Shown: one piece after another, positions 2,981-45,407 of the stretch
Layout of the letters: every line of letters starts with the position of its first letter
Numbering within the stretch: the stretch's first letter is position 1
DNA from: Thiothrix sp.
GTDB lineage: Bacteria > Pseudomonadota > Gammaproteobacteria > Thiotrichales > Thiotrichaceae
Assembly (NCBI RefSeq): GCF_028714775.1
Contig: NZ_JAQTLS010000001.1
Location: 62,001-126,000 of the forward strand
DNA: 64,000 bases
Reading direction: 5' to 3'
Made by a program: the position numbers and the translations under genes
The notes under the pieces: model-generated
Told to the model about the DNA's origin: nothing
The model's input: the letters and a program-made list of their open reading frames with translations, nothing else
The model's database searches: none

Positions 2981-3778
2981 ATGAATTTACCCGCCCTCAT
3001 GCACGCCGCCGTCCAGATTGCCCAGCAAGCGGGGATTAAAATCATGACCGTTTACAATTCGGCGGATTTTGGCATTGAGCACAAAGCCGACGCTTCCCCG
3101 CTGACTGCGGCTGATATGGCGGCGCACCACCACATTGTTGATGCCCTGACCGCGTTGACACCGCAATACCCCGTGCTTTCTGAAGAATCGGCGAAACTGC
3201 CCTTCAGCGAACGCAGCCAATGGCAAACCTACTGGCTGGTCGACCCGCTGGATGGAACCCGTGAATTCATCAAGCGTAATGGCGAATTCAGCACCCTGAT
3301 TGCGCTGATCCACAACCATGAGCCGATCATTGGCGTTGTCCACGCTCCCGCACTAGACGAAACCTGGTTTGCTAGCCTCGGCAATGGCGCTTTCAAACAA
3401 GCCAAAGGTGAAACCTTCCCGATCGCCACCCGCGCCACCGCCAGCCCGCTGAAAGTAATGGGCAGCAAATCGCACCGTGACCCGATCATGCCGCAGTTTC
3501 TGGAACGTATCGGCGCACACGATTACGGGGTGATGGGCAGTATTTTGAAAGCCTGCCTAGTGGCGGAAGGTTCGGCGGACATTTACCCACGCTTGGGGCT
3601 AACCTCCGAGTGGGACACCGCAGCGGCGCAGATCATCGTGGAAGAAGCAGGCGGGTATTTCACCCGCACTGACATGCAACCAATGCGTTACAACACCAAG
3701 GATTCGTTGCTGAACCCTTACTTCTTCGTGTTTGGGCGCGATTACCACGATTGGTCACAGTATTTAGGCGAAAGTTAG
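2981..3778 (+). CDS. cysQ: 3'(2'),5'-bisphosphate nucleotidase
   Basis: A 265-residue member of the inositol monophosphatase superfamily. Metal-binding motifs are visible: LSEESA, WLVDPLDGTREF, and SEWDTAAA near the C-terminus. CysQ removes the 3'-phosphate from PAP (and PAPS), a by-product of sulfate assimilation, keeping sulfotransfer reactions running. The ATG at 2981 follows an AGGAA site in the gap after nudE. The 3' end overlaps the convergent SseB-like gene by 4 bp. Confidence 0.88.
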   Translation: MNLPALMHAAVQIAQQAGIKIMTVYNSADFGIEHKADASPLTAADMAAHHHIVDALTALTPQYPVLSEESAKLPFSERSQWQTYWLVDPLDGTREFIKRNGEFSTLIALIHNHEPIIGVVHAPALDETWFASLGNGAFKQAKGETFPIATRATASPLKVMGSKSHRDPIMPQFLERIGAHDYGVMGSILKACLVAEGSADIYPRLGLTSEWDTAAAQIIVEEAGGYFTRTDMQPMRYNTKDSLLNPYFFVFGRDYHDWSQYLGES

Positions 3779-4176
3779 TGCAAGCCCTGCAACAGCCCCA
3801 CTTCCAAATCAATCCCCAGCTCGCTGTCGGGGTTGATGGAAATGCTGTAGCCCACACCCACTTTTTCGATGACCCACTTAAATTCTGCCAGTAAGCCACC
3901 GCCGTAACCGGGGAAATCACGCACGAAGTTTTTCGCCCGTTCGGGACTGGTGAACAGGATCAGCACTTTCTGCCCAGATTCATCGTCCAGTGTCAGCGGC
4001 ACGGCTTGGTCGCCGGTGGTGGGTTGTAGCCCGCCGATTTGGTGCTTTTCGTAAATCGGCATGAAAACCGACACTTCCATCAACTGCTGGATGAAAGCTT
4101 CGCTGTCCAATTCGCCGGACTGGGCTTTCAACAGCAGTTCTTCTGCCGCATTCATCGTTTGTGGGTTCATTTCCAT
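3775..4176 (-). CDS. SseB-like domain protein
   Basis: A 133-residue soluble protein with no signal peptide. The core (VFMPIYEK...PLTLDDESGQKVLILFTSPERAKNF) resembles the SseB N-terminal domain fold found in small bacterial proteins of unknown role. I chose the ATG at 4176 because an AAGG site lies 6 bp upstream; MNPQ at 4170 is an alternative. It is monocistronic and converges on cysQ. Confidence 0.6.
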   Translation of the reverse strand: MEMNPQTMNAAEELLLKAQSGELDSEAFIQQLMEVSVFMPIYEKHQIGGLQPTTGDQAVPLTLDDESGQKVLILFTSPERAKNFVRDFPGYGGGLLAEFKWVIEKVGVGYSISINPDSELGIDLEVGLLQGLH

Positions 4177-4245
4177 AATCCTTAAAGTCATTGATGGGTG
4201 AGAGGGTAATGAATACCGGAATCAGGCACAATGACCCCTGTGGAC

Positions 4246-4251
4246 TATAAT
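4246..4251 (+). promoter_or_regulatory. Possible -10 box for the membrane fusion protein gene
   Basis: A perfect TATAAT lies 28 bp upstream of the start at 4279. No convincing -35 hexamer is visible at the usual distance, so this is only a candidate promoter. Confidence 0.35.
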
Positions 4252-4278
4252 GAAAATGGGCATACAAGGAGTTTCATC

Positions 4279-5343
4279 ATGCGTGTTCTCCGCATTCTAC
4301 TCATTCTGCTGGTCATCGCCGGGGTTGGCTGGTGGTTCTGGCACAAACAACACCCGACAGCACTGGAAGTCAGCATTGCCAAGGTCAGCCATGGCACGGT
4401 CGAATCCAGCGTAGCCAATACCCGCGCAGGCACAGTGAAAGCCTGCCGCCGTGCCAAACTATCGCCCTCCATTGGCGGGCAAATCAGTGTGTTACCTTTT
4501 GCCAAAGGTGCGCACGTCAATACCGGCGATGTGCTATTACGCTTGTGGAACAAGGACTTGCAAGCCAGCCTCAACGCCGCCTGCCTGCAAGCCGAAGAAA
4601 CCCGCCGCGCCGCCACCCGCGCCGAACGCTTACGCACATCCGCGAGCATTTCCAGCGAAGCAGCGGATCAGGCACAAACTGCCGCCAAGGTTGCCGAGGC
4701 CAATTGCAAGGCCGCGCAATCCCAACTGGAACGCACAGTGCTTGCCGCACCGTTCGCCGGGGTGATTGCTGACATTAATGGAGAACTTAACGAATACGTC
4801 ACGCCCTCGCCACCCGGCATCCAAACATTGCCAATCATTGACCTGATTGAACCCGGCTGTTTCCTCGTCAGCGCCCCGATTGATGAAGTCGATGCGCCGA
4901 AAATCAAACCCAGCCTACCCGCCCGCATTACACTGGATTCTTGGCGGGGGCGTGATTTCCCCGGCAAGGTCACGCGGGTTGGTTCTTACGTGATTGATTT
5001 GGAAAAACAGGCACGTACTGTCGAAGTGGAATTGGCGTTCACCAATCCCGCCGACCTCAAGGATTTGCTGGTTGGCTACAGTGCGGATGTGGACATCATC
5101 CTCGAAACCCGCGCCAATGTCCTGCGCGTCCCCACCGAAGCGGTGCTGGAAAGCAAGTATGTTTACCGCCTCAATCCCGTAGGTACGCTGGAAAAGCGCA
5201 AGATTACCGCTGGCCTGAGCAACTGGAGTTTTACCGAAGTGAGCGCTGGGTTGGAAGAAAACGACAGCATCGTCACCACGCCGGGTGCTGCTGGGGTTGA
5301 AGAAGGGGCTGCTGCTAAGCCAAAGGCAGTGACGGATGAGTGA
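4279..5343 (+). CDS. HlyD/MacA-type periplasmic membrane fusion protein
   Basis: A 354-residue protein with one N-terminal membrane anchor (ILLILLVIAGVGWWFW). It then has the first half of a lipoyl-like domain, an Ala/Glu-rich coiled-coil hairpin (about residues 90-155) and a second lipoyl half with LAAPFAGVIADI. Beta-barrel segments follow (ARITLDSWRGRDFPGKVTRVG). Family members link an inner-membrane ABC pump to an outer-membrane channel. The start has an AAGGAG site. It overlaps the ATPase gene by 8 bp, so the two are co-translated, but no permease gene follows. Confidence 0.85.
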   Translation: MRVLRILLILLVIAGVGWWFWHKQHPTALEVSIAKVSHGTVESSVANTRAGTVKACRRAKLSPSIGGQISVLPFAKGAHVNTGDVLLRLWNKDLQASLNAACLQAEETRRAATRAERLRTSASISSEAADQAQTAAKVAEANCKAAQSQLERTVLAAPFAGVIADINGELNEYVTPSPPGIQTLPIIDLIEPGCFLVSAPIDEVDAPKIKPSLPARITLDSWRGRDFPGKVTRVGSYVIDLEKQARTVEVELAFTNPADLKDLLVGYSADVDIILETRANVLRVPTEAVLESKYVYRLNPVGTLEKRKITAGLSNWSFTEVSAGLEENDSIVTTPGAAGVEEGAAAKPKAVTDE

Positions 5344-43116: not shown

Positions 43117-43716
43117 ATGATTGGACTGTTGCGCGGCACACTACTGGTCAAACAACCACCCGACTTGATGCTGGATGTGAATGGCGTCGGCTATGAAGTG
43201 CAGGCTTCCATGACCACTTTTTATGACCTGCCGGAATTGCACGCTGAAGTCACGCTCTACACCCATTTTGTGGTGCGCGAAGATGCCCAATTGCTCTACG
43301 GTTTCAGTTCCCAAACCGAACGCGAACTGTTCCGCCACCTACTGAAAGTGAATGGCGTAGGGCCGAAAATGGCACTGGCTATCGTTTCCGGCATGAATCC
43401 GCTGGAATTCAACCAAGTGATCCACGCGGCAGACATTGCCCGCTTGAGCCGCATCCCCGGCGTCGGTAAGAAAACTGCCGAGCGGCTAGTCATCGAATTG
43501 CGTGACCGTTTGCCGAAAACTGACGACAGCAACAACACTTCGTTGCCTAGCACACCACAAACCCCGACCGTTTCTAACAGTGACGAAGCCATCAATGCAC
43601 TGTTGGCACTGGGGTACAAACCTACCCAAGCCAGCCAAATGATTGCCGCTTACGAAAACCAGAACTTGAGTGTGGAAGAAATGATCCGCCAAGCGCTGCG
43701 TGCCAGCCTGAAGTGA
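43117..43716 (+). CDS. ruvA: Holliday junction branch migration protein RuvA
   Basis: A 199-residue protein: OB-fold domain MIGLLRGTLLVKQPPDLMLDVNGVGYEV, two helix-hairpin-helix motifs (LLKVNGVGPKMALAI and LSRIPGVGKKTAERLVIELRDR) and a C-terminal RuvB-binding helical domain (DEAINALLALGYKPTQASQMI). It binds four-way junctions and recruits RuvB. ruvB and ruvC do not follow; a sigma-54 RNA locus does. Confidence 0.95.
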   Translation: MIGLLRGTLLVKQPPDLMLDVNGVGYEVQASMTTFYDLPELHAEVTLYTHFVVREDAQLLYGFSSQTERELFRHLLKVNGVGPKMALAIVSGMNPLEFNQVIHAADIARLSRIPGVGKKTAERLVIELRDRLPKTDDSNNTSLPSTPQTPTVSNSDEAINALLALGYKPTQASQMIAAYENQNLSVEEMIRQALRASLK

Positions 43717-43791
43717 CAGTATTCACCTGCCGTATTGTCACCTGACACGCTCTTGTCAGTTGCGATCTGTCAATCCTGTCACTTTTTGACA
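43714..43791 (+). promoter_or_regulatory. Cluster of TGTCA/TGACA half-sites, candidate enhancer
   Basis: TGACA at 43714 and 43743, TGTCA at 43736, 43754, 43768 and 43777, and TGACA at 43787. Two pairs form inverted repeats (TGTCA-2-TGACA and CTGTCA-5-TGACAG). The cluster is about 90-165 bp upstream of the sigma-54 -24 box, the usual place for an enhancer-binding protein. Confidence 0.6.
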
Positions 43792-43879: not shown

Positions 43880-43896
43880 TTGGCACGGGGGTTGCA
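43880..43896 (+). promoter_or_regulatory. Sigma-54 promoter
   Basis: TTGGCACG-GGGG-TTGCA is a perfect -24/-12 element (GG at 43882-43883, GC at 43894-43895). Transcription should start near 43907. No open frame with a ribosome site follows; the transcript is the noncoding RNA below. Confidence 0.9.
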
Positions 43897-43957
43897 AATA
43901 CCTATTTGCATAAGGGACGACAAAAACAATAAGAAAGGGTTAAAGGACGATTTTTAC

Positions 43958-44008
43958 CAGCAAGCCCCAAGAGGTAGAGAGCAGGCATAAGCATCAATAA
44001 CAATAAAG
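43958..44008 (+). repeat. Direct repeat copy 1 inside the small RNA
   Basis: Begins CAGCAAGCCCCAAGAGG, continues purine-rich, and ends with the AATAACAATAA tract. The second copy is at 44096-44147. Each copy is followed by a GC hairpin. Confidence 0.8.
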
Positions 44009-44095
44009 CGCCTGACCATACTTCGACTCCTCTATCCCCTGCGGACGACGCGGGGGAAATTTAAACCGGGAGTCCGGTGGTTTTACAACAAGTTT

Positions 44096-44147
44096 CAGCA
44101 AGCCCCAAGAGGGTAGAAAGCAGCCACAGCATATCAATAACAATAAG
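44096..44147 (+). repeat. Direct repeat copy 2 inside the small RNA
   Basis: Begins CAGCAAGCCCCAAGAGGG and ends with AATAACAATAAG. It is about 138 bp from copy 1 and differs from it at a few positions and one added base. Confidence 0.8.
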
Positions 44148-44286
44148 TTGCTGCTCGCCCAACGAAACCCCCTGTCCGCAGGGGGCATCGGTTTCCTTCC
44201 GAAAGAGGAAAAACGTTAGCAGGGAAGCTAAACAAGCTAACAACAACAATAAATACCAATAATAATAACTTTTGCCCGTGTTGACT

Positions 44287-44316
44287 GCCCCCGTTCGTCG
44301 GGGGCTGTGTTTTTTT
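44287..44316 (+). terminator. Intrinsic terminator of the small RNA
   Basis: Stem GCCCCCG/CGGGGGC with the loop TTCGT, then TGTG and seven T. Confidence 0.9.
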
Positions 44317-44450
44317 GCGTTCAAATAATATCCAACTATATCCATAGTTATAGTTACCGCTACCATAGTCATATTCCCCTCCTAAATCCGCACTGTAGAC
44401 TAGAAGCCTAGTGATAAAACATTAACCCCCATGGCTTGCGAGGGAGAATC

Positions 44451-45407
44451 ATGAGAAAACACCGGGTTCTATTATATACCGCTGTATTTATTTTAAGCGG
44501 TTGCAGGGGCGGCTCAACCGCCAGCAGCAATGGGCTGACGGTCACGCTGTCCTCAAGCAACGCTGCAAAGGCAGCAGAACTCTCAATGACAGCCCCCAGT
44601 GCCGTCATGTCTTTTATGGAGGGATTCTCATCCGATATCCCCACTGATGTCGTGACAGACATTGAAGCCCGCACAACGGCAAGACAAGCAGGCATTGCTG
44701 CCCGCATGAGCGCCAGTCGTGAAGAAGAAGCCTGTGATGGCGGTGGAAAAATCATTACCGACCAAACTGATACACAATTTATCCTCACCTTCGAAAACTG
44801 CACGGAGAGCGAAAATATTGCGGCGACGGACAATACGCCCGCCTATTCATCAACAAACATCACGAATGGCACAATTACTTTTGCTGACAGCACAGTAGAC
44901 GGCTATCCCGAAGCTGAAATGGTGAGCTTTAACCTAACAGATAGCTCAACCACTAGTGATGGGGAAGAAGAGGCCATAACAGAACAAGGCTCTTTCATCA
45001 CTGGCTACAGCGACACGGGCTACATCATCAAAAATATGAACATGAGCATAAGCAATCGCGGAAGAACCTCCACAGGGACGAACTACAATTACAGCATTGC
45101 CACACAAGACTTCAGCATCACCGTAGATGGGCAAGCCGGAACACAAACCCTAATGGGCAAAGTGACTAGTCACGGCACAGATGAAAGTGGTGAAGCGATG
45201 TTAGAGGGGACATTTATGGTAGAAACCACGAGTCCGGTTGACTTTGACCAAACCATGGGGGAATACAAAATTACTGGGGCGAATGCTTCAACGGTGATTA
45301 CTCGATTAGACCCTGCGGGCATTTATGTTGAAATAAATGGTGAATCACCAACATTTTATGCTTGGGACGATACCGATGCTTATTTCTCAGGCCAGACTTT
45401 ACCATAA
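44451..45407 (+). CDS. Secreted lipoprotein of unknown function
   Basis: A 318-residue protein with a lipobox (ILSGC) near residue 20, so probably membrane-anchored. The mature part is rich in Thr, Ser, Asp and Glu and looks like beta structure: TNGTITFADSTVDGYPEAEMVSFNL, SISNRGRTSTGTNYNYSI and TLMGKVTSHG. Two Cys (EACDGG, ENCTES) may pair. The ATG at 44451 has AGGGAG upstream. It is followed 35 bp later by a Cys-rich secreted protein. No family is recognised. Confidence 0.72.
   Translation: MRKHRVLLYTAVFILSGCRGGSTASSNGLTVTLSSSNAAKAAELSMTAPSAVMSFMEGFSSDIPTDVVTDIEARTTARQAGIAARMSASREEEACDGGGKIITDQTDTQFILTFENCTESENIAATDNTPAYSSTNITNGTITFADSTVDGYPEAEMVSFNLTDSSTTSDGEEEAITEQGSFITGYSDTGYIIKNMNMSISNRGRTSTGTNYNYSIATQDFSITVDGQAGTQTLMGKVTSHGTDESGEAMLEGTFMVETTSPVDFDQTMGEYKITGANASTVITRLDPAGIYVEINGESPTFYAWDDTDAYFSGQTLP

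Follow-up and report, generated by a model that had tools for sequence, protein, structure and literature searches.

Among described systems, the RNA family reported here comes closest in design to CrcZ, CrcY and CrcX of Pseudomonas and Azotobacter (RF01675), with which it shares a sigma-54 promoter, candidate upstream sites for a response regulator, a length comparable to their 300-400 nt, several AAnAAnAA motifs, sister copies and Hfq as the expected partner. In the parts of PMC8871633 available to us, CrcZ likewise has the sister RNAs CrcY and CrcX, and the CbrAB-CrcZ system is described only in Pseudomonas and Azotobacter; AAnAAnAA, the CA motif, is given as an Hfq motif in the available part of PMC12533007.

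The resemblance extends in part to other sigma-54 systems. Qrr1-5, controlled by LuxO, are multi-copy sigma-54 small RNAs with one response regulator that depend on Hfq and act by base pairing; the family is like them in having several copies under what would be one regulator, and unlike them in site and sequence. The PilSR-pilA regulon, in which PilSR senses the level of pilin, has a sigma-54 pilA promoter and a PilR-type regulator with its kinase beside it, as found here; we know of no small RNA among its targets, and the partly accessible literature on PilR in connection with sRNA, Hfq and pilA yielded none. GlmY and GlmZ, whose partner is RapZ and which to our knowledge lack AAN tracts, are also sigma-54 small RNAs under a response regulator, QseF (GlrR), with TGTC/GACA half-sites. 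Those half-sites are spaced by N10 according to the accessible text of PMC8745638, whereas the spacing here is N7, and GlmY is a protein decoy as far as the excerpt of PMC7073468 goes.

A preliminary description of this locus had drawn the analogy with CrcZ, including its role in carbon catabolite control. The architecture bears the analogy out, but the link to carbon control is not supported by the CrcZ model, by Crc, by CbrB or by the control site. In the 64-kb stretch of Thiothrix sp. DNA analysed here (the window) and its source genome, the CrcZ model (RF01675) scored 12.8 and 9.2 bits against a cut-off of 95, with no match in the source genome at E 0.001; in G196, presumably a Pseudomonas, it scored 306.8 bits at a locus with a sigma-54 promoter, AAYAA motifs and TGTTAC-type boxes, where our RNAs have TGTC-N7-GACA. 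No Crc-type protein was found in the source genome: the nearest, L075, is closest to Neisseria NApe (357 bits versus 253 for Crc) and keeps QETK and GDWNIAHQ, of the catalytic type, where Crc has QDTR and GSLYVAHQ. No EBP of the source genome is markedly CbrB-like (the best reaches 40.7%), and no cbrB was found at the locus beside the RNA. CrcZ orthology was therefore rejected on the covariance model, the Crc-like protein and the CbrB search. Our RNAs further differ from CrcZ in presenting the motif in a covarying hairpin module, in a palindrome shared with pilA, and in having short copies of about 145 nt. The long form at this locus, which we call class A (class B being the short form), is not a CrcZ, and may nevertheless work in a CrcZ-like manner.

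The class A locus and its AAN tracts

The pattern TGGCAYRN4TTGCW matched the window only once on both strands, at 43881-43896 (TGGCACGGGGGTTGCA), which upholds the perfect sigma-54 promoter first proposed there. Counting 12 bases from the -12 GC places the predicted RNA start near 43907, the value given before, and the transcript would end at a strong terminator with a GC stem (44287-44305) and a T-run (44310-44316). The features of the locus are as follows, where R1 denotes the covariance model built from the module discussed below:

43117-43716, + strand: ruvA, a neighbour, also near class A loci in three genera
43736-43747, + strand: accessory palindrome TGTCACCTGACA (7 instances of N4 palindromes among 44 promoters)
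43777-43791, + strand: putative upstream activating palindrome TGTC-N7-GACA (TGTCACTTTTTGACA), proposed PilR site (promoter comparison)
43881-43896, + strand: sigma-54 promoter TGGCACGGGGGTTGCA (pattern scan)
43907-44316, + strand: predicted class A small RNA of about 410 nt (start from promoter spacing, end from terminator)
43922-43932, + strand: AAN tract 1 (AAAAACAATAA), in a linker (genus comparison)
43953-44033, + strand: module 1, the AGCAAGCCCC element and a hairpin with AAN loop (R1, 101.1 bits)
43996-44006, + strand: AAN tract 2 (AATAACAATAA), in the loop of module 1 (genus comparison, module alignment)
44091-44172, + strand: module 2, a diverged copy (R1, 55.4 bits)
44136-44146, + strand: AAN tract 3 (AATAACAATAA), in the loop of module 2 (genus comparison)
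44239-44252, + strand: AAN tract 4 (AACAACAACAATAA), in a linker (genus comparison)
44258-44268, + strand: AAN tract 5 (AATAATAATAA), in a linker (genus comparison)
44287-44316, + strand: intrinsic terminator GCCCCCG-TTCGT-CGGGGGC plus T-run (sequence, genus comparison)

The original observation of a sigma-54 promoter followed by a non-coding RNA with five AAN tracts and a terminator is confirmed. No ORF common to all members was found in the family comparison, in agreement with the roughly 410 nt said to lack coding potential; a frame through module 2 is partly common to L001, L002 and L003 only, and a coding gene was ruled out because no ORF spans the members. The Rfam scan of the window gave no family at gathering score, and the class A RNA folds more stably than its shuffled versions (z -3.4; 1 of 100 shuffles as stable). 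The reported ruvA neighbourhood recurs in the relatives: of the 16 genus class A loci, 14 have RuvA in the examined flank (it was not seen in L012 and L015), as do seven examined loci of two other genera (L017/L057, which overlap, L163, L164, L165, L178 and L182). On the other side, the RNA is adjoined by a lipoprotein-like ORF at 44448-45407 with no NCBIfam match.

All five AAN tracts were recovered in the 406 nt from 43909, a number that none of 5000 dinucleotide shuffles reached (mean 0.11, maximum 2). The same 406 nt hold 10 overlapping AAYAAYAA motifs (mean 0.12 and maximum 3 in 5000 shuffles), or 12 CA-type motifs if counted by AANAANAA, and the best 14 segments of 406 nt, taken in steps of 50 on both strands, every one overlap the RNA. 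Tracts 1, 4 and 5 do lie in unpaired linkers, as had been claimed for all five, but tracts 2 and 3 occupy hairpin loops. The tracts are kept in close relatives, where their absence would have refuted the preliminary description: the locus matches all 15 other genomes of the genus (22 of the 57 searched genomes match, source genome included), and every one of the 16 genus loci carries a sigma-54 promoter (0-2 mismatches) with at least four tracts in the following 500 nt. Also nearly invariant in the class A RNAs of the genus is a 3' element, TTTTGCCCGTGTTGACTGCCCCCG (44269-44305), situated outside the AAN tracts and the modules.

Column counts over 14 of the 16 class A RNAs reveal a triplet periodicity. 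Within tracts, 34 of the 42 AA columns are invariant, as compared with 35 of 87 A columns outside them, while third-base columns are invariant in only 5 of 21 cases, being as free as C or T columns elsewhere (56 of 154 invariant); the difference in variation (16 of 21 third-base versus 8 of 42 AA columns) has a Fisher p of 1.9e-5 if columns are taken as independent. In the module loop, compared over 46 modules, six A positions never vary and two differ in 3 of 46. The AAN tracts appear to be read as triplets, as would be imposed by the distal face of Hfq, which recognises ARN triplets. The source genome encodes one Hfq of Pseudomonas-like type, so that the partner expected from the CrcZ analogy is present; among solved structures it is closest to an entry that we take to be P. 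aeruginosa Hfq, and the two are identical over YLVNGIKLQG.

A common module and the spread of the family

In each Thiothrix genome there is a single class A copy, in most cases next to ruvA, together with one or two of class B. The class B RNA consists of a sigma-54 promoter, a single module and a terminator (139-159 nt in 24 measured), carries only 1-2 AAN tracts, and is represented in the source genome by G000:C10:59380. The preliminary description, correct as to the long RNA, had no place for these short copies, for the common module or for the pilA motif considered below. Between two class B genes, L033 has an IS200/IS605-type TnpB-like ORF at about 3600-4700, recognised by eye.

The module alignment comprises 46 of 47 distinct modules. 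L006, whose first module lost a base, is not in it, and two off-register matches and one near-duplicate had been removed before counting. CAAGCCC is invariant in all 46, and each can be folded into a hairpin of two parts with AATAACAATAA or a variant in its loop; 91% of alignment cells pair. Cells changed on both sides number 38 versus 13.3 in shuffles, and the covariation score is 0.322 versus 0.214, both above all 500 shuffles, with slid controls at 0.153 or less; both-sided change occurs in 6 of 10 pairs, a level that 17 of 500 shuffles reach, whereas pair types are no more numerous than in the shuffled alignments (353 of 500). The hairpin presenting tracts 2 and 3 has covariation support.

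Searching with R1, a covariance model from the relatives' own sequences and with E-values that are rough, we found matches in 56 of the 63 genomes of the Thiothrix/Leucothrix family, in all eight genera. Over 369 genomes of the class there were 3 matches, all to family members, and none in the 366 genomes outside the family, where the search was less sensitive (12 candidates scored per genome versus 73 within the family). The 22 modules from six other genera (E down to about 1e-4) all have a sigma-54-like site with 0-3 mismatches, 41-314 nt upstream in a scan run without shuffle control, and AGCAAGCCC is kept in most of the modules examined from other genera. A pattern scan of named genomes returned 48 stretches, mostly from Thiothrix, Leucothrix, Cocleimonas or Thiotrichaceae, and R1 was scored on 16 of them, every foreign name included. 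Five foreign-named stretches scored 15-19 bits, which is chance-like, and L223 had no R1 score; scores of 32-91 bits were obtained for Aquificaceae MAG 28, for Proteobacteria PDPG01000043 and for a gammaproteobacterium from a rock biofilm. The contigs L183 and L210, deposited as Aquificaceae (MAG 28), carry modules, and the deposited name is probably wrong. Viral contigs gave 0 matches to the RNA pattern. The partly accessible literature on Thiothrix/Leucothrix small RNAs and on CrcZ contains no account of this RNA family, in keeping with the earlier impression that it is undescribed in this group.

The upstream palindrome, pilA and the candidate activator

TGTC-N7-GACA is present in 38 of the 44 RNA promoters compared (49 rows minus 5 dropped as off-site), starting 92-106 bp upstream of the -24 box. 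Combined with the strict promoter, it yielded 38 matches in the 16 genus genomes and 0 in the reversed control, and all 38 precede a module (30 checked directly, 8 by coordinates). When one promoter base was relaxed, palindrome and promoter together gave 84 matches in 46 of the 63 family genomes, with 0 again in the reversed control; these comprise 60 module RNAs, 7 other AAN RNAs, 15 pilA genes and 2 others. Forty of these assignments were read directly (7 AAN RNAs, 14 pilA, the 2 others and 17 module RNAs, of which one is truncated where its contig ends and another has a diverged element), the pilA of the source genome separately, and 43 module RNAs by coordinates. Taken alone, TGTCRN5YGACA occurs 10 times in the source genome versus 18 in the control, and a sigma-54 promoter lies within 200 bp of three of the ten, namely those of class A, class B and pilA. 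Among the 16 genus genomes, 9 have the pair at pilA, as have 6 of the 47 others, representing three genera; genus g2 has no match to the pattern, and the other genomes without such a pilA show RNAs only.

The seven same-promoter RNAs that lack AGCAAGCCCC (L315, L317-L320 and L339 of g7, which holds Leucothrix, and L321 of g6) retain two to four AAN tracts, and all seven share the motif AATAATAAAAATAA. Palindrome and sigma-54 promoter are also found at L324 and L327 (genus g5), ahead of a short transcript with terminator and no AAN tracts.

Because palindrome and promoter also precede 15 pilA genes, the activator of the RNAs is most likely PilR, judging from the shared control site. Eleven strong sigma-54 activators were recognised in the source genome, which implies that it has rpoN. 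The genome also has L063, a PilR-type regulator with a histidine kinase upstream; its paralogue L062 has none. No NCBIfam model was over cut-off for L063, and we presume it to be PilR from sequence features and from the pilA link. In Acinetobacter, a regulator that follows a PAS kinase shares 49.6% identity with the PilR-type regulator. L062 (L112:7219-8640) lies beside fimbrial-looking genes, by eye of chaperone-usher or spore-coat-U type. The P. aeruginosa PilR sites, in the accessible part of PMC6058289, have the hallmark TGTN11AGA with a nearby GTCT, similar to TGTC-N7-GACA but not identical.

The proposed Hfq titration and its rivals

The motif that the RNAs repeat is also found at pilA itself: AAYAAYAAGG covers the Shine-Dalgarno site in 11 of 15 pilA leaders. 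In the remaining leaders, L323 has AAYAAYAA elsewhere, and L329, L330 and L336 have neither. AAYAAYAA stands near the start of 2 of 258 sampled genes of the source genome, one of them pilA; gene starts thus show no enrichment of the CA motif (1.9 in shuffles; ARN tracts 9 versus 5.9). The CrcZ-bearing control genome gave 2 of 240 versus 0.5 shuffled (ARN 8 versus 2.8), and since enrichment is small even there, the gene-start test is a weak one. AAYAAYAAGGA occurs 11 times in the source genome, more rarely than its reversed control (19); the corresponding numbers are 17 versus 12 in G004, 10 versus 13 in G015 and 21 versus 12 in G008. Three of the 11 sites directly precede an ATG-started gene, namely pilA, gspG and a CreD-like gene (named by eye), and a fourth precedes a TTG frame only. 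The identity of gspG is firm (TIGR01710, 165.7 bits), and the motif precedes it in two species, the source genome and, by eye, G015.

We consider the best reading, with slightly better than even confidence, to be that the RNAs are decoys, induced by PilR, which draw Hfq away from pilA. As the regulator of the PilSR pair, which senses pilin, PilR would bind TGTC-N7-GACA, situated some 100 bp upstream of the -24 box, and would turn on pilA together with the RNAs. The AAN tracts, single-stranded or in a hairpin loop, would occupy the distal face of Hfq, which would otherwise repress pilA translation via AAYAAYAA at the Shine-Dalgarno site; the RNAs would relieve this repression at pilA, and perhaps at gspG, in a coherent feed-forward loop. 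What can be read from the DNA is the promoter, the palindrome shared with pilA, the conserved triplet-periodic motif and its occurrence at the pilA ribosome site, and from these we infer transcription, PilR binding, Hfq binding, repression and relief. As an extension, to which we give somewhat less than even confidence, the RNAs might form a second arm of PilSR across the whole bacterial family: pilin shortage would release a pulse of Hfq decoy, and demand for pili would reset Hfq-dependent translation, relieving pilA and gspG.

If this is true, the type II secretion pseudopilin gspG would be among the relieved targets besides pilA, and PilSR would gain a post-transcriptional output. Hfq titration would have arisen separately from CrcZ, sigma-54 regulators having come to this design at least twice, and titration by AAN repeats would not be a Pseudomonas speciality tied to Crc and carbon. 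A group of filamentous sulfur bacteria would gain a testable regulator of pili and possibly of secretion, and direct tests can already draw on a defined family model, a defined control site and a defined target motif.

Several observations weigh against titration. Class B, with one or two AAN tracts, would make a poor sponge; the best-conserved element, AGCAAGCCCC, is not explained by binding to Hfq; the lack of enrichment at gene starts argues against a broad target set; and the decoy model has to accommodate 4 of 15 pilA genes without the motif at the ribosome site as well as the PilR paralogue L062, the small share of family genomes (15 of 63) in which the control pattern turns up pilA, and the departure of the palindrome from the P. 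aeruginosa hallmark. The main rival is base pairing through AGCAAGCCCC, in which that element or the GACTCCTC tail would be the seed, the AAN loop would be only a class II-type Hfq anchor, and the activator would still be PilR; we regard it as possible, though rather unlikely. It would account for the invariant CAAGCCC and the retention of AGCAAGCCC in other genera, and the tail resembles an anti-Shine-Dalgarno sequence; the few tracts of the short copies likewise lean away from titration. Perfect 12-base complements of the AGCAAGCCCC element number 66 in 16 genomes, 47 of which are the RNA genes, and the complement TTGGGGCTTGCT is found outside RNA genes 19 times versus 1 for its reverse (L392-L407, L232, L241 and L250). 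However, 12 of these 19 sites lie inside a sense frame of at least 150 codons and 5 opposite one, and of the four places that recur, each in two genomes, none is by eye a shared translation start. The RNAs pair less strongly with the starts of pilA and gspG than with that of the median gene, the pilA energies having been computed apart from those of the other genes and without a rank. The seven RNAs that lack AGCAAGCCCC yet keep AAN tracts lean to titration.

Sponging of CsrA/RsmA is very hard to credit: the 19 class A-type RNAs counted have 2-6 ANGGA each, but GGA does not occur in 21 of the 24 class B RNAs, nor ANGGA in any of them, and a CsrB/RsmZ-type sponge was rejected for class B. It is equally improbable that the RNA is a true orthologue of CrcZ, working alongside Crc and CbrAB in carbon catabolite control. 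The promoter, the length, the CA motifs and the sister RNAs would speak for this; the failing model scores and the missing Crc-type protein oppose it, as do the palindrome common to the RNA and pilA and, as far as PMC8871633 is accessible, the confinement of CbrAB to Pseudomonas and Azotobacter. An unchanged RNA family and Hfq role under another activator is less remote than these, albeit improbable. The candidates are the paralogue L062, whose DNA-binding end is very like that of L063, and the GlrR-like L064 (42.7%, closest to GlrR), since GlrR uses TGTC/GACA half-sites. The N7 palindrome upstream of pilA in 15 genomes of 3 genera and the kinase beside L063 favour PilR instead, and the GlrR site is TGTCN10GACA, as given in the accessible text of PMC8745638.

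An activator encoded beside the RNAs was also considered and rejected: tblastn of EBPs and kinases against 200 loci, mostly with short flanks, matched five. Three of these are L053 and L144, with a weak kinase/regulator match near a G008 class B RNA, and L223, which is without a module. The other two, L180 and L227, are the same place in Leucothrix arctica, where a gene of the type of RtcR, a regulator of RNA repair, adjoins two class B copies; the corresponding Thiothrix protein, L068, reaches 780 bits against RtcR.
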